A stretch of DNA of 39,273 nucleotides, taken from the NCBI RefSeq assembly GCF_000378965.1, contig NZ_KB900536.1, positions 219,808 to 259,080 on the forward strand, written 5' to 3'. Source of the DNA: Thioalkalivibrio thiocyanodenitrificans ARhD 1 (lineage in GTDB: Bacteria > Pseudomonadota > Gammaproteobacteria > Ectothiorhodospirales > Ectothiorhodospiraceae). Shown here piece by piece: positions 4,583 to 30,014 of this stretch; positions within the stretch are counted from its first letter, which is position 1, and every line of letters starts with the position of its first letter. The notes below the pieces were generated by a model. The model was not told the DNA's origin and searched no databases. It saw nothing but the letters and a program-made list of their open reading frames with translations. The position numbers were made by a program, and so were the translations under genes.

Positions 4583-5191
4583 GTGCGACACGAAGTCGCA
4601 CGCTTATTTATCAGGGAGTTAGATCTGATGTTCAGCCATCAGTCCCCTATCGGGCCGTGCGTCGGGGGTAACCCCGGGGTACGAAGCGTCTGAGACAACG
4701 TAGCCTCCGTCCGCGGACGGGTCACCACGCCGTGAGGTTCGGTGGCGACTGCCAGCTCCAGGGCGGTCGGGAGCCAGGGGTGTGAGGGATGGTCAACCGA
4801 GGTGAACCGTCATTCGACCCGTCGTTAAGTGGAACGTGCCAAAGGAGCTGACAGGCACAAGCCAAAATGGCAAGCAGCCCGGTCGGGATGTTTAGGTGTC
4901 ATCCCGCGCTGACATCGTGGTGCCGGCGGACAGACGGGACCTACTCCTCACGGGAGTGGTAAGCGTGCGGAACGTGGTAAGCCCCAATGAGCCCACAAGG
5001 ACCGTGGAAAGCGACCCGCGAGGGTCGCCGGTACGAGTGGGGGTAAGGGATGCCGGAGAAAGCGAACGCCGCCCCGTAATCGGGCGGATAGGGGTTCAGA
5101 CTTTGCCCCACCCGAAAGGGCGCCCACTTCCGGCGGGTCTTGGATCACGAGAAAGGCCGAGGAAAGGCTTTACCCGAGGGTTTCTTGGACA

Positions 5192-6640
5192 ATGAACGCC
5201 ACTGGCTTCATTGAAGGCCCTCTGGACGCCCCGCTACCGTGGAACCGCATCTGCTGGGAAACGGTACGTCGGAACGTCAGCCGATTACAAGCCCGGATCG
5301 TGAAGGCCGTACGCGCAGGCCGGTGGCACCGGGTTCGCTCGCTGCAGCGCCTGCTCCGGAAGTCGCTCGGGGCCAAGTTGCTGGCCGTGCAGCGAGTGAC
5401 TTCCAACCGAGGGAAGAACACGGCCGGGGTCGACGGCATCGTCCTGAAGACCCCGGAGCAGAAGTGGCAGCAAGCCCAAGCGTTACATCGTCAGGGCTAT
5501 CAGCCGTTGCCCGTCAGACGGATCTACATCCCCAAGAAGAACGGAAAGAAGAGAGCCCTCGGCATCCCGGCGCAGTGTGACCGGGCCGAACAGGCGCTCG
5601 ATCTGCTGGCACTGGACCCGGTGTCGGAAACCTTGGCCGATTCGTGCTCCTACGGCTTCCGGAAGGAACGGAATTCCCAGGACGCGATGGCCCGGTGTTT
5701 CACTGCACTGTCGAAACGGACCAGCGCGGAATGGATTCTGGAAGGGGACATCCGGGCGTGTTTCGATGCCTTCGATCACGAATGGCTCGTCGAGCACACC
5801 CCGACCCATCAAGGACGACTCCGGGCGTGGCTGAAGTCAGGGTTCATGGAGCAGAGACGCCTATTCCCCACGGATCGGGGCACGGCCCAAGGGGGTGTGA
5901 TTTCCCCGACGGTCGCGAACATGGCCCTCGACGGACTGGAAGACCGCCTCCGTGCCCGCTTCAAGCGCCGCGGCAAGGTCAATCTGATCCGTTTCGCCGA
6001 CGACTTCGTGATCACCGGCGAAAGCCGGGCGATTCTCGAACAGGACGTGATGCCGTTGGTCACGGAATTTCTGAAAGAACGCGGACTGGTCCTCGCACCG
6101 GAGAAGACCCGCATCGTCCACATCGATGAAGGGTTCGACTTCCTCGGGTTCCACTTCCGCAAGTACGGTGGAAAGCTCCTGATCAAGCCATCACGCGCCA
6201 GCATCGGCCACTTGCGCGCGAAGGTAGAGATGATCCTCCAAAAGGGCCGACACTGGCCCCAGTCGGAGATCATCGGCATGCTCAACCCCGTCCTGCGGGG
6301 CTGGGGGAACTACTTTCGCCACGTGGTCAGCCAGGTCGTGTTTCAGAAACTCGACCACTGGATCTGGCGTATGACATGGAACTGGGCACGTCGCCGCCAT
6401 CCACAGAAAAACCAACGGTGGATCAAGGAGCGTTATTTCCACCAGCAAGCGGCACGGAAGTGGGTGTACGGTGACGATCGCCACACGCTGGTCTCGCTCG
6501 CGCGCATCCCCATTCGGCGGCATGTGCACGTGCGTTCCGGAACCAACCCGTATGATCCGCAGGACGCGGATTACTTTCAGCAACGGCGCGCGGCCAACCG
6601 CGCGTACCCGAGCCACCAGGGGTTGGCTTCTGTCCGGTAA
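5192..6640 (+). CDS. ltrA: Group II intron reverse transcriptase/maturase (intron 2)
   Basis: This 482-residue intron-encoded protein has RT blocks in order: GKNTAGVDGIVLKTPEQKW, PLPVRRIYIPKKNGKKRALGIP, DSCSYGFRKERNSQDA, WILEGDIRACFDAFDHEWL, GTAQGGVISPTVANMAL and the catalytic block RFADDFVITG. The active site reads FADD rather than the usual YADD. The maturase (X) region follows, with WGNYFRHVVSQVVFQKLDHWIWRMTWNW cut here as WGNYFRHV...WRMTWNWARRRHP. No HNH endonuclease Cys pairs are visible at the C-terminus. The intron would then be expected to lack second-strand cleavage. It sits in the intron's domain IV position. Confidence 0.92.
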   Translation: MNATGFIEGPLDAPLPWNRICWETVRRNVSRLQARIVKAVRAGRWHRVRSLQRLLRKSLGAKLLAVQRVTSNRGKNTAGVDGIVLKTPEQKWQQAQALHRQGYQPLPVRRIYIPKKNGKKRALGIPAQCDRAEQALDLLALDPVSETLADSCSYGFRKERNSQDAMARCFTALSKRTSAEWILEGDIRACFDAFDHEWLVEHTPTHQGRLRAWLKSGFMEQRRLFPTDRGTAQGGVISPTVANMALDGLEDRLRARFKRRGKVNLIRFADDFVITGESRAILEQDVMPLVTEFLKERGLVLAPEKTRIVHIDEGFDFLGFHFRKYGGKLLIKPSRASIGHLRAKVEMILQKGRHWPQSEIIGMLNPVLRGWGNYFRHVVSQVVFQKLDHWIWRMTWNWARRRHPQKNQRWIKERYFHQQAARKWVYGDDRHTLVSLARIPIRRHVHVRSGTNPYDPQDADYFQQRRAANRAYPSHQGLASVR

Positions 6641-6696
6641 CAACGACATCGGTTCTTTCTCACGGCCGGGTGCTTCACGGCGCCTTAGCAAGGCTT

Positions 6697-6730
6697 GAGC
6701 CGTGTGCGGTGAAAGTCGCAAGCACGGTTC
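6697..6730 (+). ncRNA. Group II intron domain V (intron 2)
   Basis: The 34-nt catalytic hairpin starts GAGCCGTGTGCGG, has the GAAA-containing loop, and ends GCAAGCACGGTTC. Arms pair and the AGC-type catalytic triad lies in the lower stem. It sits 40 nt before the intron 3' end. Confidence 0.92.
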
Positions 6731-6771
6731 TTAGGGGGCGGGGCGGCGGTAACGCCGCCTTGCTACCCGAC

Positions 6772-11306: not shown

Positions 11307-11819
11307 GTGCGCCGAGATAAATCGGTAGAAGATTGGAGGTGAGATTCCTCTGCTTGGCAAGGGTTAGCCACCCACCGAGACCCCGAGTCATGGGCCGTTG
11401 TCCGTAAGGGCGGGGGTTAAGCGTTGACAGGGGAAGATGCAGGCCCAGTATTGAGCTCCGAAATCAACGTCGAGAGCGCCGACTCTGTTGGGTGAAGGGG
11501 AAGGCCATACCGGCGGCTGCGACATGGCAAGTAGCCGCCGAGGCTCTCCGGAGTCAGAGACCTGGAGCATGTGTTGATGTCTTCTATGCGGAACTCGGGA
11601 GATCCTGCTCACGATCTGCGCCCGTCCCGGCGTGGGTCGGATCCGGGGAAGTAAGTACATCGCCCGGCTGTCAACGTGAGCAGGAAGTCGGACAAGACCA
11701 TAGTAGCGAAGAAGCGAGCGAACAATGGGTACAGAGCGTGACACAGGAAGTCAGACTGCCCCCGGCGGAGCTCGTGGAGCGAAGGGTTTTGACAAAGAGA
11801 AAGCAGGATCGGACGGGGT

Positions 11820-13163
11820 GTGACGATGACACAGAGCATCGGGCAAACGCCGCCTGGACTGATCCGGCTACATGAAGCAGCAAGACGGGACCGTCGGCTG
11901 AGATTCAATAACCTCCTGCACCATGTCACGGTGGAGCTGCTGGAGAAGGCGTATTATGCCCTCAACCGCAAGGCAGCCTCCGGGGTCGATGGCGAGGACT
12001 GGAGCGGCTATGGAGAGGGGCTCCAGGAGCGGCTCATCGAGCTTCACCAGCGACTTCACACCAACCGTTACAAACCCCGGCACGTCAAACGGATCTGGCT
12101 CACCAAGGCCAACGGCAAACCGCGTCCGATCGGCATCACCGCCATTGAAGACAAAGTGGTCCAACAGGCCCTGGTGTGGATCCTGGAGGCGATCTACGAA
12201 AGTGATTTCCTCGGGTTCAGCTACGGGTTTCGGCCCGGCCGCTCGCAACATCAGGCGCTGGATGCCGTCTACATGGCGATCACCGTCAGGAAGACAAGCT
12301 GGGTACTGGATGCAGACATCAAGGGGTTCTTCGACGCCATCGACCACGACTGGATGATGCGGTTTCTGGCGCACCGGATCGCAGACAAGCGGATACTGCA
12401 CATTATCGAGCGCACGCTCAAATGTGGGGTGGACGAAGACGGCAAACGGGAAAGAACCGTGGTGGGGACGCCACAAGGTGCGGTGATCTCCCCCATCCTG
12501 GGGAACATCTACCTGCACTACGTTCTGGACCTATGGGCAAGCCAATGGCGTAACAGGAGCGCTGGAGGTGAAACGACCATCGTACGCTACGCCGATGACA
12601 GCATCATCGGCTTCCAGTACCGCGCCGATGGCCAGCGCTTTGAGGCTGAGCTAAAGGAACGGCTGGCGAAGTTTGGACTGAGCCTGAACGACGAAAAGAC
12701 CCACCTGATCGAGTTTGGCCGATTTGCCCAAAGCAATCGTGCCCGGCGTGCAGAGGGTAAGCCGGAGACCTTCGACTTCCTGGGGTTCACCCACGTGTGC
12801 TCAAGGCGGCGAAGTGACGGAGGCTTTTCCCTCAGGCGCTACACCATTGCCAAAAAGCAGCGGGAAAAGCTCGGCCAGGTCAAACAGGTGCTAAGGAAGA
12901 CCCGCCACCGGCATCCGTTTGATGTCGGGCGGTGGCTGCGCCGCGTCGTCCAGGGTTATCTCAACTACTTCGCCGTACCGGGAAACAAACAGGCACTTGA
13001 TGCCTTCCGGGCGGAAGTCTGCCGCGCATGGTTGAGGGCACTCAGGAGGCGAAGTCAGAAGAGCGCTGGGATTCCGTGGAAACGAATGACAGCCCTCATC
13101 AAGCATTTCATCCCCAGTGTCCGCGTACTACACCCATACCCGAATCAGCGGCTTTGTGTCTGA
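11820..13163 (+). CDS. ltrA: Group II intron reverse transcriptase/maturase (intron 3)
   Basis: This 447-residue protein has RT blocks AYYALNRKAASGVDGEDW, KPRHVKRIWLTKANGKPRPI, GFSYGFRPGRSQHQALDAV, WVLDADIKGFFDAIDHDWM, GTPQGAVISPILGNIYLHY and the catalytic VRYADDSIIGF. The domain 7 and maturase region contains FDFLGFTHVCSRRRSDGGF and VVQGYLNYFAVPGNKQALD. It ends HPYPNQRLCV without an HNH domain, as in RmInt1-like proteins. The ORF start is not certain: ATG 11826 is an alternative six bases later. Full length and intact motifs suggest an active or recently active intron. Confidence 0.92.
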   Translation: MTMTQSIGQTPPGLIRLHEAARRDRRLRFNNLLHHVTVELLEKAYYALNRKAASGVDGEDWSGYGEGLQERLIELHQRLHTNRYKPRHVKRIWLTKANGKPRPIGITAIEDKVVQQALVWILEAIYESDFLGFSYGFRPGRSQHQALDAVYMAITVRKTSWVLDADIKGFFDAIDHDWMMRFLAHRIADKRILHIIERTLKCGVDEDGKRERTVVGTPQGAVISPILGNIYLHYVLDLWASQWRNRSAGGETTIVRYADDSIIGFQYRADGQRFEAELKERLAKFGLSLNDEKTHLIEFGRFAQSNRARRAEGKPETFDFLGFTHVCSRRRSDGGFSLRRYTIAKKQREKLGQVKQVLRKTRHRHPFDVGRWLRRVVQGYLNYFAVPGNKQALDAFRAEVCRAWLRALRRRSQKSAGIPWKRMTALIKHFIPSVRVLHPYPNQRLCV

Positions 13164-20380: not shown

Positions 20381-20428
20381 TTCGAGCGTGACGGGTGGCA
20401 GGTGACGGCAGGGCCGGTACGTCACCCG

Positions 20429-20967
20429 TCACTCGCCCCACTCGCCCTCCGTCTCCGCCAGGGTAACGGGTGGCTCCTTACCCCAGTCCGACGTATAAAG
20501 CCCTCTCTCAACCGCCCTGGCGAACGAGCTGTACGGCCAATCCCCGGGGCCCGGCACATAGCCATGTTTGACCGGGTTGTAGTGGACGTAGTCCATGTGC
20601 CGACGCCAGTCCTCCTCGTCGCGGATGGCATGCTCCCAGAAGCGCCGTTGCCAGACGCCCTTCTCGCGTCGCCGTTCCAGCGAGGCACGGTCCGTCGCAG
20701 CGTCCTGACCGATGCTGAAGTAATGCTTGATCTTCCGCCAGCGCAGCGCGTAATCGCCATCACCCTCCGGCAATCTCCAGATGGCGTGCAGGTGGTCGGG
20801 CAGGATCACCAACGCATCGATGTGGAACGGATGGGCCGCCCGCGGCGAAACCCTTCGCGAAGACGCGCCACGTTGCCGGGTTCGGTGAGCAGCGGCCGGC
20901 GTCCCTGGGTCACCACCGTGAAAAAATGGATTCCGCCGGGGATGCATACTCTGCGATAGCCAGTCAT
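20429..20967 (-). pseudogene. RAYT transposase, frameshifted
   Basis: A perfect SD (AAGGAGGT) precedes ATG 20967, and the product begins MTGYRRVCIPGGIHFFTVVT then RLREGFRR. The frame then changes near 20840-20850. The other frame continues AAHPFHIDALVILPDHLHAIW (HUH motif HLH), KGVWQRRFWEHAIRDEEDW and HMDYVHYNPVKHGYV, all conserved in this family. About 179 residues would be coded without the frameshift. It is flanked by identical 33-bp REPs. It belongs to a different RAYT subfamily from the one at 4361-7566. Confidence 0.85.
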
Positions 20968-21026
20968 TCCAGACCTCCTTGTCCGGGATTGCGAGGGGTG
21001 CGCTGCGGCGCGGTCTGGTGAGAGAG

Positions 21027-21059
21027 GTAGGATGGGCAAAGCGCAGCGTGCCCATGCGG
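21027..21059 (+). repeat. REP sequence, upstream of the RAYT
   Basis: Identical over 33 bp to 20348-20380, in the same orientation. It lies about 60 bp before the RAYT start codon. Confidence 0.85.
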
Positions 21060-24339: not shown

Positions 24340-25305
24340 ATGTCCTCGACCCTTCCCCTGTCCTTCCTGCCGTCATCCACGTTCCCGGCCATACGGCGCG
24401 GCAAACTCGAGACCCTGCAGGTGAACCTGGGCTACGTGTGCAACCAGACCTGTTTTCACTGCCATGTGAACGCGGGGCCCAACCGCCGGGAAGTCATGGA
24501 CCGCGGGACCGTGGACCTGGTGCTGAACTGCCTGCGCACATCCGGCGCCACCACGCTGGATCTGACCGGCGGCGCACCGGAGTTGAACCCGGATTTCCGC
24601 TACCTGGTGACCGAGGCCCGGCGCCTGGGCGTGAAGGTCATCGACCGCTGCAACCTCACCATCCTTGAGCAGCCCGGTCAGGATGACCTGGCCGACTTCC
24701 TCGCCGCGCAGGGAGTGGACGTGGTGGCCTCCCTGCCCTGTTACCTGGAAGAGAACGTGGATGCCCAACGGGGGGACGGTGTGTTCAGGGGCAGCATCCG
24801 CGGGCTCCGGCAACTCAACGCCCGGGGATACGGACAGCCGGGCAGCGGGCTGGTGCTGGACCTGGTGTACAACCCGCAGGGACCCACCCTGCCGCCGCCC
24901 CAGGGGCCCCTGGAAGCGGATTACAAGCGACACCTCGAGAAACACTACGGCGTGCGCTTCAACCAGCTCTACACCATCGCCAACATGCCTATCCACCGAT
25001 TCGGGAAGCAACTGCGCCGGGAGGGCCGGCTGGACGAATACATGACGCTGCTCCGGGAGGCGCACCGGGATGAGAACCTGGACGCGGTCATGTGCCGATC
25101 GCTGATCAGTGTCGACTGGCAGGGGTACGTGTACGACTGCGACTTCAACCAGATGCTGCGTATCCCGCTGGGCGGCGCACCGGGGCGCACGCACCTGCGC
25201 GATCTTATGGGCCGGGACCCGGCCGGCCGCCCCATCGCCGTGGCGGATCACTGCTACGGCTGCACCGCCGGACAGGGCTCCAGTTGCGGGGGGGCTTTGA
25301 GTTAG
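24340..25305 (+). CDS. arsS: ArsS-type radical SAM/Cys-rich domain protein
   Basis: The 321-residue protein has the SAM-cluster motif CNQTCFHCHVNAGP (CxxxCxxC) near residues 37-44, then DLTGGAPELNPDFRYL and VIDRCNLTIL. YCLEENV-type PCYLEENVDAQRG, NPQGPTLPPPQ and the C-terminal Cys-rich (DUF3641) end VDWQGYVYDCDFNQML ... HCYGCTAGQGSSCGGAL follow. These match the family called arsenosugar biosynthesis radical SAM protein ArsS. No arsM gene is in the window, so arsenosugar synthesis is not shown. Its stop codon touches the first heptad of repeat element A. Confidence 0.88.
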   Translation: MSSTLPLSFLPSSTFPAIRRGKLETLQVNLGYVCNQTCFHCHVNAGPNRREVMDRGTVDLVLNCLRTSGATTLDLTGGAPELNPDFRYLVTEARRLGVKVIDRCNLTILEQPGQDDLADFLAAQGVDVVASLPCYLEENVDAQRGDGVFRGSIRGLRQLNARGYGQPGSGLVLDLVYNPQGPTLPPPQGPLEADYKRHLEKHYGVRFNQLYTIANMPIHRFGKQLRREGRLDEYMTLLREAHRDENLDAVMCRSLISVDWQGYVYDCDFNQMLRIPLGGAPGRTHLRDLMGRDPAGRPIAVADHCYGCTAGQGSSCGGALS

Positions 25306-25467
25306 TCAGTTGTCAGTTGTCAGTTGTCGATGGTCAGTTGTCAGTAGTCCGTTGTCAGTGGTCCTTTGTAAGAGAACCCGTTGACAGGCACCGGGGGCGA
25401 ATCACGCTCCTGACAACTGACAACTGACAACTGACCATCGACAACTGACTACCGACCACTGACAACC
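25305..25467. repeat. Heptad-armed inverted repeat element, copy A
   Basis: The left arm (25305-25367) has nine 7-bp units of form GTCNNNN, mostly GTCAGTT, with a GTCGATG variant in unit 4. The core is 25368-25411. The right arm (25412-25467) has eight units of form GACNNNN, the reverse complement, again with the GATG variant fourth from the outside. The core starts GTAAGAGAACCCGTTGACAG. The whole can fold into a long imperfect hairpin between the convergent arsS and HIT genes. Confidence 0.9.
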
Positions 25468-25877
25468 AAAAAATCCAGGCAGCGGCTCAGGCGTGCCGCG
25501 ATCTCCGCGCGTTCCCGATCGTCGTAAGGCACCCTTTGCCCGACGCCCCAGACCGGACCGGGCCAGGCCGGGTCGTTGCGATGGCGCACCACGTGGTGCA
25601 GGTGCAACTGCGCGACCACGTTGCCCAGCTTGGCCACGTTCATGGCATCGGCGGCGAACGCCGCCGCCATGGCCCGGGCCACGGTGCGGGATTCCCGGCA
25701 GAGCGCGTCGTGATCCGCATCGTCGAGATCATGGATCTCCGTGACACCACCGCGTTTCGGTACCAGGATCACCCACGGCCAGCGTGCATCGTCCATCAGC
25801 CGGTAGAGACACAACGGGGATTCGCCCAGGGCAATGGTGTCACCCTCAAGCCGGGCATCGAGATGGAAATCTTTCAT
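25449..25877 (-). CDS. HIT-family nucleotide hydrolase/transferase
   Basis: The 142-residue protein has the histidine triad QLHLHHVVRH (His-x-His-x-x-x-x-His variant) near residues 95-104. The N-terminal pattern is EGDTIALGESPLCLYRLMDD followed by WPWVILVPKRGG, typical of the short HIT proteins of Proteobacteria. Its last codons (LVVSGR and stop) are supplied by the right arm of repeat A. Its start codon is 3 bp from repeat B, leaving no visible Shine-Dalgarno sequence. Confidence 0.85.
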   Translation of the reverse strand: MKDFHLDARLEGDTIALGESPLCLYRLMDDARWPWVILVPKRGGVTEIHDLDDADHDALCRESRTVARAMAAAFAADAMNVAKLGNVVAQLHLHHVVRHRNDPAWPGPVWGVGQRVPYDDRERAEIAARLSRCLDFLVVSGR

Positions 25878-25879
25878 TG

Positions 25880-25999
25880 GTCAGTTGTCCGTGGTCCGTG
25901 GTCCGTTGTCAGTTGTCAGTTGTCGGGAACGTCATCGGCCCCGGAACTTATCAGGGGGTTCTTTTACAACTGACAACGGACCACGGACAACTGACCGCC
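25880..25999. repeat. Heptad-armed inverted repeat element, copy B
   Basis: Left units, inward: AGTT, CGTG, CGTG, CGTT, AGTT, AGTT after GTC. Right units from the outside: AGTT, CGTG, CGTT, AGTT. So the arms carry the same variants in the same order, apart from an extra CGTG. The core is diverged (GGGAACGTCATCGGCCCCGG...) and lies in the opposite orientation to A. It fills the whole gap between the aldo/keto reductase stop and the HIT start. Confidence 0.85.
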
Positions 26000-26923
26000 T
26001 CAAAGCTCCTTCAGCATACGTTGCCGCAGGGGTTCATCGGGCAACTCGCCTCTGCCCGCCGCCATGTTCTGCTTCATGTATTCCACCCGCCGTGTGGCGG
26101 GGATGGCGCAGGTGACCGCGGGATGCGAGACGACGAACTTCAGGAACACCTGGGACCAGTACTCGCAGCCGATCTCGGCGGCCCAGCCCGGCAGGGGCCG
26201 GCCCTCCACGCGGCGGAACAGGTCGGCACCGCGAAACGGCCGGTTGATGATCACCGCGATGCCCCGCTCCCGGGCCAGGGGCAGCAGCCTCGACTCGGCG
26301 GCGCGGTCCAGCATGTTGTATGTGATCTGCACGAAGTCCAGGGGGTGCTCCCTCATGATCCTTTCCAGTTCCTCGTGCTGGCGGCCATGGGAGGTGGTGA
26401 TGCCGAGGTATCGGATCCGGCCCTCGTCCCGATCGGCGAGCAGGGTCTCCAGATGCGTCTCCCAGTCCACCAGGTTGTGGATCTGCATGAGATCGAACCG
26501 GTCCACGCCCCACAGCCGGCGCGAGCGCGCCATCTGCTCCTCGCCGCTGCGCCGCCCCCGGGTCCACACCTTGGTGGCGGAAAACAGCGGCGGCGAATCG
26601 ATGCGTTGCAGGGCGTAACCCAGCACCTCTTCCGATGACCCGTACATGGGCGACGAATCCACCATCTGCCCGCCCTCCTCGAAGAACGTGCGCAGCACCT
26701 CGGTGCGCGCATCCCGCAGGGACACGTCGTTGCCCACGTCGAAGGTGCGCCAGGTGCCCATGCCGATCACGGCAATCCGTTCACCGCTGGACGGAATCAC
26801 CCGGGTGATGGTTTCCCCCGGCGCGGCGGCGACCGGTGAAACGGGCAGGAACGGCAATATCCCGGCCCCGGCCACACAGTGCAGAAAACGGCGGCGGGAG
26901 AAAAGCGGATTGTGTTCACTCAT
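26000..26923 (-). CDS. Tat-exported aldo/keto reductase
   Basis: The 307-residue protein has a Tat-type signal (SRRRFLHCVAGAGILPFLPVSPVAAAP). The AKR fold is shown by VIGMGTWRTF, MVDSSPMYGSSEEVLG (catalytic Asp and Tyr), LFSATKVWTRG (Lys), DLMQIHNLVDWETHL (His) and IRYLGITTSHGRQHEELE (in part). The NADPH region is less standard. Export implies a periplasmic reductase or a redox enzyme loaded with cofactor in the cytoplasm. It is divergent from pirin, sharing a 220-bp region. The stop codon abuts repeat B. Confidence 0.87.
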   Translation of the reverse strand: MSEHNPLFSRRRFLHCVAGAGILPFLPVSPVAAAPGETITRVIPSSGERIAVIGMGTWRTFDVGNDVSLRDARTEVLRTFFEEGGQMVDSSPMYGSSEEVLGYALQRIDSPPLFSATKVWTRGRRSGEEQMARSRRLWGVDRFDLMQIHNLVDWETHLETLLADRDEGRIRYLGITTSHGRQHEELERIMREHPLDFVQITYNMLDRAAESRLLPLARERGIAVIINRPFRGADLFRRVEGRPLPGWAAEIGCEYWSQVFLKFVVSHPAVTCAIPATRRVEYMKQNMAAGRGELPDEPLRQRMLKEL

Positions 26924-27030
26924 GGCGGTTCGGCCTCTTCGGACATCTTCCCGGCGGATGGGCGTTCTTTGCGATACTCATTCTTCAGTACCTCCGGTGC
27001 CGTGGCGGTTCCGTCAGGAGAGAGGATCGT

Positions 27031-27076
27031 TCCGAATATGCGAACACCGGATTCACTTTTACGCTGTTTATTCGGA
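27031..27076. promoter_or_regulatory. Inverted repeat in the AKR-pirin divergent region
   Basis: TCCGAATA (27031-27038) and TATTCGGA (27069-27076) are perfectly inverted with a 30-bp spacer, 68 bp before the pirin start. They could be operator half sites or chance. Nothing else convincing is seen in 26924-27143. Confidence 0.25.
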
Positions 27077-27143
27077 CGTGAGAAACCACCAGAATACAGA
27101 TCACTCCCATGATGTCATCCTCCCCGCAACCCGGAGAACGCCC

Positions 27144-28004
27144 ATGAAACCACGTACCGTGAAGACGAGAATCGGCGGGATGCCCGTCTCCGAAGGCGCC
27201 GGCGTGCAACTCAGGCGCAGCCTCGGCACGCCGGCGCTCAAGAACCTGGACCCGTTCCTGATGCTGGATCATTTCTCCAGCGACAACCCGGATGACTACG
27301 TGGCCGGGTTTCCGGATCACCCGCACCGGGGGTTCATCACCTTTACCTACATGCTCAATGGCCACATGGAGCACCGGGACAGCATGGGCAACCAGGGGGA
27401 TCTGAAAAGCGGCGGCGCCCAGTGGATGAAGGCGGCAAGCGGCGTGATCCACTCGGAGATGCCCCGCCAGCAGGACGGGCTCATGCGCGGTTTCCAACTC
27501 TGGATCAACCTGCCCGCCCGGGAAAAGATGTCCGATCCGGCCTACCAGGAGTACGGCGCCGGGGCCTTCCCCGTCACCGACGAGCCCGGCGCACGGGTCA
27601 AGGTGCTCATGGGATCCCACGGCGAGGCCCGCGGCCCCATCGAGGACCCCCTCACCGACGTGCATTACCTGGACCTCACCCTGGAGGCGAGCGCGCGCTT
27701 CAGCCATGCGCTGCCGGAAGGGCACAACGCGTTCATCTACGTCTACGAGGGCGCGGTCAACGTCGGCGACACCGCGGTGAGCACCCACGAACTGGCCGTG
27801 CTGGTCGACGGGGAAGGCGCGGCGCTGGAGGCCGCGGACCAGGGGGCGCGCGTCATCCTGGTGGCGGGACGCCCCATCGGCGAGCCGATCGTTCAGTACG
27901 GGCCCTTCGTCATGAACCGGCGTGAAGAGATCGAACAGGCATTCCAGGACTACCAGCAGGACCGACTGGTACGCACCCGTGCCCGCATGGAGGGGCATGG
28001 GTAA
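27144..28004 (+). CDS. Pirin family protein
   Basis: The 286-residue bicupin starts at ATG 27144 (GGAG upstream). Metal ligands of the N-terminal cupin are in DHPHRGFITFTYMLNGHMEH (His-x-His, then His and Glu). The GAQWMKAASGVIHSEMP and GFQLWINLP motifs are family hallmarks. A C-terminal pirin cupin runs to the end. Pirins include quercetinases and redox-sensing factors; the role here is unknown. The 3' end is followed 2 bp later by repeat C. Confidence 0.93.
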   Translation: MKPRTVKTRIGGMPVSEGAGVQLRRSLGTPALKNLDPFLMLDHFSSDNPDDYVAGFPDHPHRGFITFTYMLNGHMEHRDSMGNQGDLKSGGAQWMKAASGVIHSEMPRQQDGLMRGFQLWINLPAREKMSDPAYQEYGAGAFPVTDEPGARVKVLMGSHGEARGPIEDPLTDVHYLDLTLEASARFSHALPEGHNAFIYVYEGAVNVGDTAVSTHELAVLVDGEGAALEAADQGARVILVAGRPIGEPIVQYGPFVMNRREEIEQAFQDYQQDRLVRTRARMEGHG

Positions 28005-28006
28005 TG

Positions 28007-28142
28007 GTCAGTTGTCAGTTGTCAGTTGTCAGTTGTCAGTTGTCAGTTGTCAGTTGTCAGTTGTCAGGAACGTGATTCGCCCCCGGGTACCTGTCAACGG
28101 GTTCTCTTACAACGGACCACTGACAACGGACTACTGACCGCC
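28007..28142. repeat. Heptad-armed inverted repeat element, copy C
   Basis: The left arm is eight perfect tandem GTCAGTT units (28007-28062). The core 28063-28114 is nearly identical to that of A when A is reversed (GTCAGGAACGTGATTCGCCC...). The right arm is four GACNNNN units (28115-28142) ending GACCGCC, as in B. It lies between the convergent pirin and HNH genes and overlaps the last codons of HNH. Confidence 0.9.
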
Positions 28143-28502: not shown

Positions 28503-28617
28503 CACAACTCTCCAGTTCCCGGTTTCATGACAGGATAGCGCACACCCCGAATCCGCCGAAGTCCCGCAGGACCTCGGGCAGAAGTCCCTGAAAAGCAGAC
28601 TCCCATGGACGCGGACA

Positions 28618-28659
28618 CCTCACGCCTCACGCCTCACGCCTCACGCCTCACGCCTCACG
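28618..28659. repeat. Tandem 7-bp repeat (CCTCACG) x6
   Basis: Six perfect copies of CCTCACG end 20 bp before the start of the SpmA/B-like gene. The unit length equals that of the GTCAGTT arms, but the sequence differs. The 28503-28617 stretch holds nothing else I can call. Confidence 0.9.
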
Positions 28660-28665
28660 CCCAAG

Positions 28666-28679: not shown

Positions 28680-30014
28680 ATGAACGTCATCTTCTTCGCC
28701 CTGGTGGCCATCGCCTTTGCCACCGCCGCATGGCACCAGCTCGCCTGGGACGGCGAAGGGGAATCCCCCATGACGCAGCTCACCGGCGGTGTCATCGACG
28801 CCGCCGGGGGCGCGGTGGAGCTGGCCATCGCACTGATCGGTGTGATGACCCTGTTCCTGGGGCTCATCAAGGTGGCCGAGGCCGGCGGCCTGCTGGCGAT
28901 CCTGGCCCGGCTGATCCGCCCGCTGATGGTGCGGCTGTTCCCGGATGTGCCCCCCGATCATCCGGCCATGGGCGCCATGATCCTCAATCTCTCCGCCAAC
29001 ATGATGGGCCTGGGCAATGCCGCCACGCCCTTCGGCATCCGCGCCATGCAGGCGCTCAATCAGCTCAATACGCGACCGGGCACCGCCACCGACTCCATGG
29101 TGCTGTTCCTGGCCATCAACACCTCCAGCGTGACCCTGCTGCCCACCGGCGTGATCGCGCTGCGCGCGGCAGCGGGGTCCTCGGATCCGGCGGGGATCCT
29201 GCCCACCACGCTGTTCGCCACCCTGTGCGCCACCGTGGCCGGGATCAGCGCGGCATTTCTGTTCCGGCGCCTGGCGCCCCTGCCGCCCACGCCCGCAACC
29301 CCGCCACCGGAACCGGACGACGCGCCGGGCAGTGAGGAACCGCTCGATGCCCCGACCCCGGCGGACACCGACACCACCAGCCTGCCCGACGGCATGAACC
29401 GACCCTATCCGGGCTGGGTGTCCGCCCTGGCCCTGCTGGGCTTCGTTGCGCTGATCCCCCTGTCGGTGCTCTACGGCCAGGCCATCGCCCCCTGGATCAT
29501 CCCGAGCCTGGTGCTTGGCTTTCTCACCTTCGGCATGCTGCGCGGCGTGCGCATCTACGAGGTCTTCGTGGAAGGGGCGAAGGAGGGTTTCCAGGTGGCG
29601 GTGCGCATCATCCCCTACCTGGTGGCGATCCTCGTGGCCGTGGGCATGCTGCGGGCCAGCGGGGCCCTGGGGGCGTTCGTGGCCCTGCTCGGCCCCGTCA
29701 CCGGACCCCTGGGCCTGCCGCCCGAGGCGCTGCCCATGGCGCTGCTGCGCCCCCTGTCCGGTTCCGGTGCCTACGGGATCATGGCCTCCATCATCAACGA
29801 CCCGGCCATCGGCCCGGACAGCTATGTGGGTTACCTGGTCACCACGTTGCAGGGCTCCACGGAAACCACCTTCTACGTGCTCGCCGTCTACTTCGGCGCC
29901 GTGGGCGTGCGGCGCCTGCGCCATGCACTGCCCGCGTGCCTGACCGCGGACCTCGTGGCCGTCATCGCGGCGGTGATCGCGGTGGGCGTGGTGTTCGGAC
30001 ATGCCGCCATGTAA
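28680..30014 (+). CDS. Nucleoside-recognition (SpmA/SpmB-like fusion) membrane protein
   Basis: The 444-residue membrane protein has two Gate/nucleoside-recognition domains. The first (about 1-205) has NLSANMMGLGNAATPFGIRAM, cut here as SANMMGLGNAATPFGIRAMQ. The second (about 240-444) has LRPLSGSGAYGIMASIINDP and GSTETTFYVLAVYFGAVGV. A long acidic Pro-rich linker (PPPEPDDAPGSEEPLDAP) joins them. In Bacillus the halves are separate spore maturation proteins; in proteobacteria they occur fused, with unknown transport role. No SD is visible, because the sequence before ATG is the tandem repeat. Confidence 0.88.
   Translation: MNVIFFALVAIAFATAAWHQLAWDGEGESPMTQLTGGVIDAAGGAVELAIALIGVMTLFLGLIKVAEAGGLLAILARLIRPLMVRLFPDVPPDHPAMGAMILNLSANMMGLGNAATPFGIRAMQALNQLNTRPGTATDSMVLFLAINTSSVTLLPTGVIALRAAAGSSDPAGILPTTLFATLCATVAGISAAFLFRRLAPLPPTPATPPPEPDDAPGSEEPLDAPTPADTDTTSLPDGMNRPYPGWVSALALLGFVALIPLSVLYGQAIAPWIIPSLVLGFLTFGMLRGVRIYEVFVEGAKEGFQVAVRIIPYLVAILVAVGMLRASGALGAFVALLGPVTGPLGLPPEALPMALLRPLSGSGAYGIMASIINDPAIGPDSYVGYLVTTLQGSTETTFYVLAVYFGAVGVRRLRHALPACLTADLVAVIAAVIAVGVVFGHAAM

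Follow-up and report, generated by a model that had tools for sequence, protein, structure and literature searches.

Among the periodic repeats of prokaryotic intergenic DNA, tandem heptamers have been described as the most abundant, with "no clear clue" to their function (PMC6344855). In the accessible parts of the literature, two descriptions come closest to the elements studied here. GGGAATC heptads of Xanthomonas are dispersed and intergenic, in runs of 2-26 units, they lie nearer the end of the upstream gene (mean 28 nt) than the next gene, and two convergent repeats are found close together 70 times among the 186 repeat patterns of Xcc and 75 times among the 183 of Xac (Rehm et al, 2015; PMC4692102). 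The class 3 paired tandem repeats of Geobacter metallireducens consist of the heptad MTYCTGA, with 5 units per site and 16 sequences (2009; PMC2700814). Direct repeats of TAACTGA occur in Beggiatoaceae, cyanobacteria and Bacteroidetes, with indels in 7-nt steps between two Cyanothece strains, and CAACTGA was found as a direct repeat only 3 times (MacGregor, 2015; PMC4679880). Finally, repetitive extragenic palindromic (REP) sequences and their hairpin-forming pairs (REPINs), which go with REP-associated tyrosine transposases (RAYTs), are present in two Thioalkalivibrio genomes (Di Nocera, 2013; PMC3733652). Here, we analyse a window of 39,273 nucleotides from Thioalkalivibrio thiocyanodenitrificans ARhD 1 (C1:219808-259080 of a genome of 3,746,647 bases in 3 contigs, G000 below) that holds three palindromic elements, A, B and C, built of 7-bp units of the GTCAGTT type. 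We propose that they belong to an old repeat family, non-coding and palindromic, whose many copies lie at gene ends, with many sites that would predate the split of the species, and we hold this full account with about even confidence.

In its complete form, the element is a uniform (GTCAGTT)n array, a conserved asymmetric core and a short inverted arm of mixed heptads. Two kinds of two-armed element occur: type I has the core, in a loop of about 51-60 bases with one unit per side included, and type II lacks the core and has a loop that is shorter, mostly 15-40 bases. An earlier note, made from the letters of the window, had picked out A, B and C, and all three are confirmed, with arms of 9 + 8, 6 + 4 and 9 + 4 units, respectively (the counts for A and for the long arm of C take in an odd unit that runs into the core). 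As that note also described, the cores of A and C are nearly identical once oriented (93% identity), the core of B has diverged, and no gene lies inside any of the three, although the ends of flanking genes do run into A and C. Their features are given below, with arm units written as the four bases that follow GTC.

25305..25463, minus strand (core on the minus strand): element A, whole, type I, between convergent genes.
25305..25367, plus strand: arm of A on the TGTCAA side, AGTT-AGTT-AGTT-GATG-AGTT-AGTA-CGTT-AGTG-CTTT.
25381..25386, minus strand: core half-site TGTCAA of A (TTGACA on the plus strand), placed by the core alignment.
25404..25410, minus strand: core half-site GGAGCGT of A (ACGCTCC on the plus strand), placed by the core alignment.
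25408..25463, minus strand: arm of A on the GGAGC side, AGTG-GGTA-AGTT-GATG-AGTT-AGTT-AGTT-AGGA.
25880..25995, plus strand: element B in full, type I but diverged, with the HIT gene start on one side and the aldo/keto reductase stop on the other.
25880..25921, plus strand: arm of B on the GGAGC side, AGTT-CGTG-CGTG-CGTT-AGTT-AGTT.
25926..25932, plus strand: core half-site GGAACGT of B.
25949..25954, plus strand: second half-site of B, diverged, TATCAG.
25968..25995, minus strand: short inverted arm of B, AGTT-CGTG-CGTT-AGTT.
28007..28138, plus strand: element C in full, a type I copy flanked by convergent pirin and YajD-family HNH genes.
28007..28069, plus strand: long uniform array of C, 8 x GTCAGTT, then GTCAGGA.
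28067..28073, plus strand: core half-site GGAACGT of C.
28092..28097, plus strand: core half-site TGTCAA of C.
28111..28138, minus strand: short inverted arm of C, AGTA-CGTT-AGTG-CGTT.

The genes that flank A are convergent radical SAM and HIT genes, and the first G of its TGTCAA-side arm overlaps the TAG stop of the gene at 24340-25305; the short arm of C provides the TAG stop of the HNH gene. To the right of B, the gene was set by hand to aldo/keto reductase, as the open reading frame (ORF) caller picked a shadow ORF.

That these elements are not a product of chance follows from three comparisons. In the genome, GTCAGTTGTCAGTT is present 184 times and its reversed control is absent. With 60 dinucleotide shuffles as reference, the z-scores of RNA folding come to about -13 for A, about -8 for B and -4 to -5 for C. 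Inverted pairs of period 7 number 19 in 132,077 bases of this genome (6 of other units and 13 GTCAGTT-like, the latter biased upward because 5 of the 6 stretches were picked for GTCAGTT copies) against 0 in one copy with mononucleotides shuffled in 200-base blocks. The same bases hold no pairs of periods 8-11, 6 of period 6 (1 shuffled) and 16 of period 5 (47 shuffled). Over 1,238,645 bases from 80 named loci, mostly of other Gammaproteobacteria and at least 2 of Thioalkalivibrio, the counts against shuffled sequence are 5 and 5 for period 7, 19 and 6 for period 6, and 6 and 1 for period 8. Rfam gave no match in 25305-28142 at the gathering score.

Many more than three copies exist. Searching by BLAST with C and by a degenerate heptad pattern, we found at least 44 clusters, each of at least 4 units, in the window and 34 further loci of this genome (loci of this and other genomes are numbered with L below), with copies spread along contig C1. 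Two arms are present in 32 of these clusters and some copies are single arrays; the arrays are made of several 7-bp units set head to tail, as in a heptameric tandem repeat. The degenerate pattern was found in 5 of 5 genomes of the genus Thioalkalivibrio, in 0 of 32 from other genera of its family and in 1 of 21 others of the class (G044). A sequence-only model of the core matched 2 of 369 sampled genomes of the class, the window's own and G044, and 1 of 398 sampled genomes of the phylum, again the window's own, under filters strict enough that weak relatives may be missed. Carriage by plasmids or phages found no support: a 201-base element had no BLAST match in plasmid and phage collections, a search that in effect tested mainly the core because BLAST masks simple repeats, and a strict core pattern had no match in IMG/VR.

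One asymmetric core is carried by 15 type I copies in this genome, of which B is the most diverged. Its layout is GGAGCGTRA, about 15 variable bases and TGTCAA; in detail, it reads GTCAGGAGCGTRA, a variable stretch, TGTCAA and then roughly GGGTTTTC.ACAAC. Over 32 aligned cores, the information per column is 1.23 bits in the GGAGCGTRA part, 0.61 in the centre and 1.60 in TGTCAA, and the half-sites are spaced by 23 in 23 and by 24 in 6 of the 29 cores that a script could measure. The core is also polar. The long uniform GTCAGTT array usually adjoins its GGAGC side and the short inverted arm the other: among 30 type I elements of the genus, the GGAGC-side arm is the longer in 23 (L254, one of the 7 with a longer TGTCAA-side arm, is cut by the contig start), and the uniform run touching the core has a median of 8 units on the GGAGC side versus 1 on the other. 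G044, from another family, has the same core (GAGCGTAA ... TGTCAA) with the same polarity, as a GTCAGT[TA] array lies on the same core side in 7 of 17 fetched loci (L288-L290, L292 and L299-L301), those where the array is visible together with the core or its GAGCG half; the opposite side, where visible, has a different heptad of the ACTGATS type. Of the 12 type I copies located outside the window, 9 have a long-arm strand in agreement with the local GC skew, which is not significant and is confounded. As a structured RNA the core was rejected, since folding 32 cores to a consensus left the array strand unpaired and gave the other strand 3 weak pairs (-0.04 kcal/mol).

Do the two arms of an element evolve together? 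In its changes of length, the array by the core's GGAGC half does not keep step with the opposite arm. At the site orthologous to C in the relative G001, the long arm has 13 units versus 8 here and the short-arm units are identical, so that at this site the arms vary independently between strains. The uniform run differs in all 7 comparable type I pairs of G000 and G001 (C 8/13, L033 5/8, L036 10/6, L042 8/6, L046 8/13, L057 18/12, L059 17/10), and the total units of the arm that bears it differ in 6 of 7, the exception being L042/L238 with 11 and 11; such variation in unit number between relatives is that of a heptameric tandem repeat. Short-arm unit number is unchanged in 3 of the 7 pairs (C, L033, L036), and only at L059 does the short arm change in the same direction as its long run, where the long array has 17 GTCAGTG units here versus 10 GTCAGTT units in G001. 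L062/L239 was left out of the array lengths because the G001 contig ends inside the array, and was retained for core identity. Replication slippage or unequal recombination would account for the changes in array length.

The earlier note had read the same order of variant units in both arms as co-evolution by hairpin templating, in which one arm is copied or repaired from the other. We wrote the arms as unit lists and aligned them to their own partner or to the partners of other elements. The two arms of one element fit each other no better than arms re-paired between elements, in type II (n = 34, P = 0.37), in type I (n = 30, P = 0.99) or in this genome only (n = 28, P = 0.61). The shared order itself holds for B, whose own arm fits better than all 75 foreign arms. 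It holds in part for A, which is the only 1 of 76 elements with a rare unit in both arms (GATG), but 9 of 75 foreign arms fit equally well, and it fails for C, where 75 of 75 foreign arms do as well as its own. Templating would also suit the L051 site, where the palindrome of G003 and G004 carries another unit, GAAGTG, on both sides. At site A, however, G003 has unlike arms, with AGTA/AGTG units in one and AGTT/TGTT in the other. Together with the long and short arms being out of step at orthologous sites, these results contradict templating for the GTCAGTT family, and as its explanation we find it scarcely credible.

At least half of the clusters have a same-site counterpart in another species: for at least 22 of 44, both flanks match at least one relative to within 60 bp of the element, a lower bound because the relatives are partly drafts and pairs were taken among the matches listed. 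Strict site pairs among those matches number at least 34, 18 of them between G000 and G001; a looser both-flank count of 46 pairs, 20 of them G000/G001, includes cross-matches of neighbouring clusters. Draft contigs end in or beside arrays at L204, L237, L239 and L254 and, in G044, at L285, L288, L289, L290, L294, L295, L297 and L299, which indicates that the elements break assemblies and that drafts give minimum counts. We also compared a 20-kb stretch with several clusters, which gave no usable further site.

At two of eight orthologous G000/G001 sites, the core differs far more than the flanks, and one of these cores resembles that of a distant copy. Core identity is 91-100% at 6 sites and 70% at L036/L222 and L042/L238, where flank identity is 95-98% and 94-96%, respectively. 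Between the L036 core and the core of L057, 885 kb away, identity reaches 95%, and the outer units of the short arm have stayed the same at L036/L222; for the L222 core, the nearest among the cores compared is 74% identical, and no donor was found. At the L042 site, the core of the more distant G002 agrees with that of G000 (88%), which places the change in G001. Both cores have the look of replacements, for which ectopic gene conversion between copies would account; the heptads common to all copies may give the homology for such conversion, which would keep the family similar. At L043/L208, the element is of type II in this genome and type I-like in G003.

Dispersed copies could also be explained by a miniature inverted-repeat transposable element (MITE), or a REPIN-like one, moved in trans by a transposase with the heptad arms as its ends. 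L051 and L059 lie about 720 kb from each other and share 94% identity over 120 bp, and 98% in their cores, so that one is a recent copy or conversion product of the other. Different heptad families stand at the same place across species, as if one kind of site had been hit repeatedly: next to one and the same stop codon at site A, heptads of the GTCAGTT family are found in G003 and GTACTTG heptads in G004, and at the L051 site G003 and G004 carry GAAGTG-type palindromes and G002 another heptad patch. In addition, a RAYT gene lies within the window (20429-21055, minus strand, NCBIfam NF047646), and 22 of 44 clusters are without a both-flank counterpart in the stretches fetched from relatives. 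The elements, however, have no fixed ends, as unit number varies, and hence no fixed terminal inverted repeat. Words of at least 5 bases common to the two 10-bp flanks occur in 0 of 32 two-armed elements, with 0.62 expected on re-pairing, so that no target-site duplication is seen, and 22 of 44 clusters are at shared sites. No partner gene turned up, though no cross-genome search for one was made, and at the four sites examined in relatives with flanks found (A, B, C and L051) what stands there is the element, other heptads or some other sequence, with no site cleanly empty. We regard a mobile element of this kind as an unlikely alternative to an old family with inherited sites.

Many of the elements lie close to gene ends. 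A stop codon lies within 10 bp of the edge in 24 of 43 elements (one of the 44 clusters, inside a called ORF, was left out), and 12 of 43 lie between convergent genes with both stops within 25 bp. Stop-side distances have a median of 8 (31 of 52 within 10 bp) and start-side distances a median of 20 (10 of 33 within 10 bp), a difference that is suggestive only, because start sides need room for signals. If transcribed, the palindrome would form a hairpin at the 3' end of the flanking messages, where it probably acts, in end protection or as a help in termination.

Alternatively, the elements may be binding arrays for a regulatory or architectural protein, with array length tuning the neighbouring genes, as proposed for IHF/HU-like proteins in Geobacter, whose opposite-strand paired repeats have been read as global regulator sites (PMC2700814). 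A conserved asymmetric bipartite core with near-fixed spacing, present in two families, would suit such a protein, and under our own account, too, we predict a protein-binding site in the core, whose two fixed halves enclose a fast-changing centre. Many elements nevertheless stand behind stop codons, 13 of 44 clusters between convergent genes, where one would less expect a promoter; the unit family differs between species at two sites, and no candidate protein has emerged. We regard this explanation, too, as unlikely.

A promoter in the core that fires into the array has also to be considered. On the reverse strand the core reads TTGACA, which we take to resemble a -35 box, followed about 17 bases on by ACGCTC, and an RNA would start near the first heptad. 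TGTCAA, which is TTGACA on the other strand, is the best-kept part of the core, its distance to the other half is nearly constant, and the array lies on the side that such an RNA would enter. By eye, though, no -10-like hexamer stands at the right distance (no promoter scan was made), and the TTGACA word could derive from the heptad itself; we consider a promoter very improbable.

Several points weigh against the account that we prefer, an old family of palindromic repeats at gene ends. A shared site is shown for only at least 22 of the 44 clusters. At L036/L222, the side of the change cannot be told, loss and re-insertion at the same spot would resemble core conversion, and the sample of replaced cores is 2 of 8. 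The short arm, too, changed in 4 of the 7 pairs, by 1-3 units (L042 from 2 to 4, L046 from 5 to 4, L057 from 3 to 4, L059 from 7 to 4), and the G001 assembly is 82% complete in about 600 contigs, so that its array lengths may be collapsed. The stop-codon distances have no element-free intergenic regions as a control and depend on gene calls from our own ORF scoring. Finally, the aligned cores were chosen as alignable from 35 loops of at least 51 bases, with L202 and L211 dropped as not aligning, L210 dropped as a duplicate and one extra heptad trimmed from L223.

Palindromes of other heptads also occur in the genus, with units TTCAAGG, TTCAAGA, GCAAGTG with CAAGTCT, GAAGTGG with GAATTGG, CAAGATA, GTGAGGC and GGTGCTT. 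Possibly the 7-bp period is inherited rather than the sequence, through an enzyme system that adds heptads one-way at the GGAGC edge of the core and also makes these other palindromes, much as CRISPR arrays gain repeats at the leader or telomerase adds units. Such addition would explain the one-sided uniform arrays, the replaced units at fixed sites and the excess of period-7 inverted pairs; we consider it quite improbable.

Some further heptad and palindromic features were seen in passing. At L058:216-293, two heptad arms (CAAGATACAAGAGG...) form a near-perfect palindrome around a loop of about 6 bases and carry the same variant units in order, one arm with an extra unit; this is the best case for matched arms, but belongs to another unit family. 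In a distinct palindromic family, the arms contain CAAGTCTCAAGTGGCAAGG and enclose a hairpin-like loop that is often of the CCCTCTCCCTCAGGGAGAGGG type; the unit order looks fixed, closer to ordinary terminal inverted repeats, and the copies of this family are the following.

L051:2269-2397, copy of the CAAGTCTCAAGTGGCAAGG-arm family.
L334:2912-3004, copy of the same family.
L335:1139-1261, copy of the same family.
L220:2216-2338, copy of the same family.
L336:1117-1235, copy of the same family.
L337:1215-1314, copy of the same family.

In L336 (G004 C1:671100-675500), the two genes that flank L051 in G000 enclose a longer insert of about 900 bases, which includes the heptad palindrome and looks partly common to G003. 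The palindrome at L039:1480-1546 extends from the heptads into the flanking DNA for 11 bases (AGATGCCAATA / TATTGGCATCT), as though an older stem-loop held the element in its loop; among the elements in general, the flanks outside the arms are not palindromic, with 3.91 matching bases versus 3.53 on re-pairing, a value reached in 46 of 500. Within the window, a (CCTCACG)n heptad array in one orientation lies at 28612-28661, upstream of the gene starting at 28680, and is longer at the corresponding place in G001 (L206, from 1314). A short inverted heptad-like pair (GTGACGG) is found at 20388-20441, at the 3' end of the RAYT gene. The window also contains group II intron parts (Rfam; 4624-6771, 11342-13163 and 613-886), with reverse transcriptase genes at 5192-6640 and 11820-13163.

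How do the GTCAGTT elements relate to described repeats? By description, the arrays resemble the short tandemly repeated repetitive (STRR) sequences of cyanobacteria, which are tandem heptanucleotide repeats (sequences not compared); in 150 kb of a Trichormus variabilis plasmid, a sample too small for cyanobacteria, we found 3 heptad arrays and no inverted pair. The TAACTGA repeats are one base from CAACTGA, the other-strand reading of GTCAGTT, and are likewise mostly intergenic, with sulfur-oxidising Gammaproteobacteria among their hosts, but they are direct repeats, with a single inverted case in the 170 sets of the main genome, lie mostly just upstream of start codons, and come without mention of a core in the accessible part of the source (PMC4679880). 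REPs are also short palindromes near genes whose ends often supply a stop codon (PMC3733652), yet they measure 20-40 bp and have a GTAG or CGTC end tag, in the text available, whereas the GTCAGTT elements are heptad arrays without such a common tag among the flanks listed: an outward GTAG or GGAG lies within 15 bp in 6 of 32 (CGTC not counted).

Closest are the Xanthomonas and Geobacter families, with which the GTCAGTT family shares opposite-strand heptad arrays close together between genes, in 32 two-armed clusters here. The Xanthomonas repeats are dispersed intergenic heptads with nearby inverted pairs, and the Geobacter arrays, in a genome with several paired short-repeat families, were drawn looping from strand to strand. 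The units differ, GTCAGTT here against GGGAATC and MTYCTGA; the Xanthomonas unit is G-rich with a proposed G-quadruplex, and no conserved core is mentioned in the accessible part of that paper. The Geobacter repeats were interpreted as global regulator (IHF/HU) sites, and in this comparison by text a core cannot be excluded for them. The earlier note knew of no element with this design. The paired inverted heptads are not new, having been published for Geobacter in 2009 and Xanthomonas in 2015, but no conserved core is reported for either in the parts available. For a polar conserved core, its sharing across families and core exchange, we found no description in the accessible open-licence literature, and these, with the many-family context, appear new. 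To the study of tandem heptamers, the GTCAGTT family would thus add a handle that consists of an array-linked core, polarity, readable orthologous sites and signs of core exchange. If the core does bind a protein, that protein would be an entry point to the question of heptamer function. Heptad arrays break assemblies and, beyond this, may act as dispersed recombination points.

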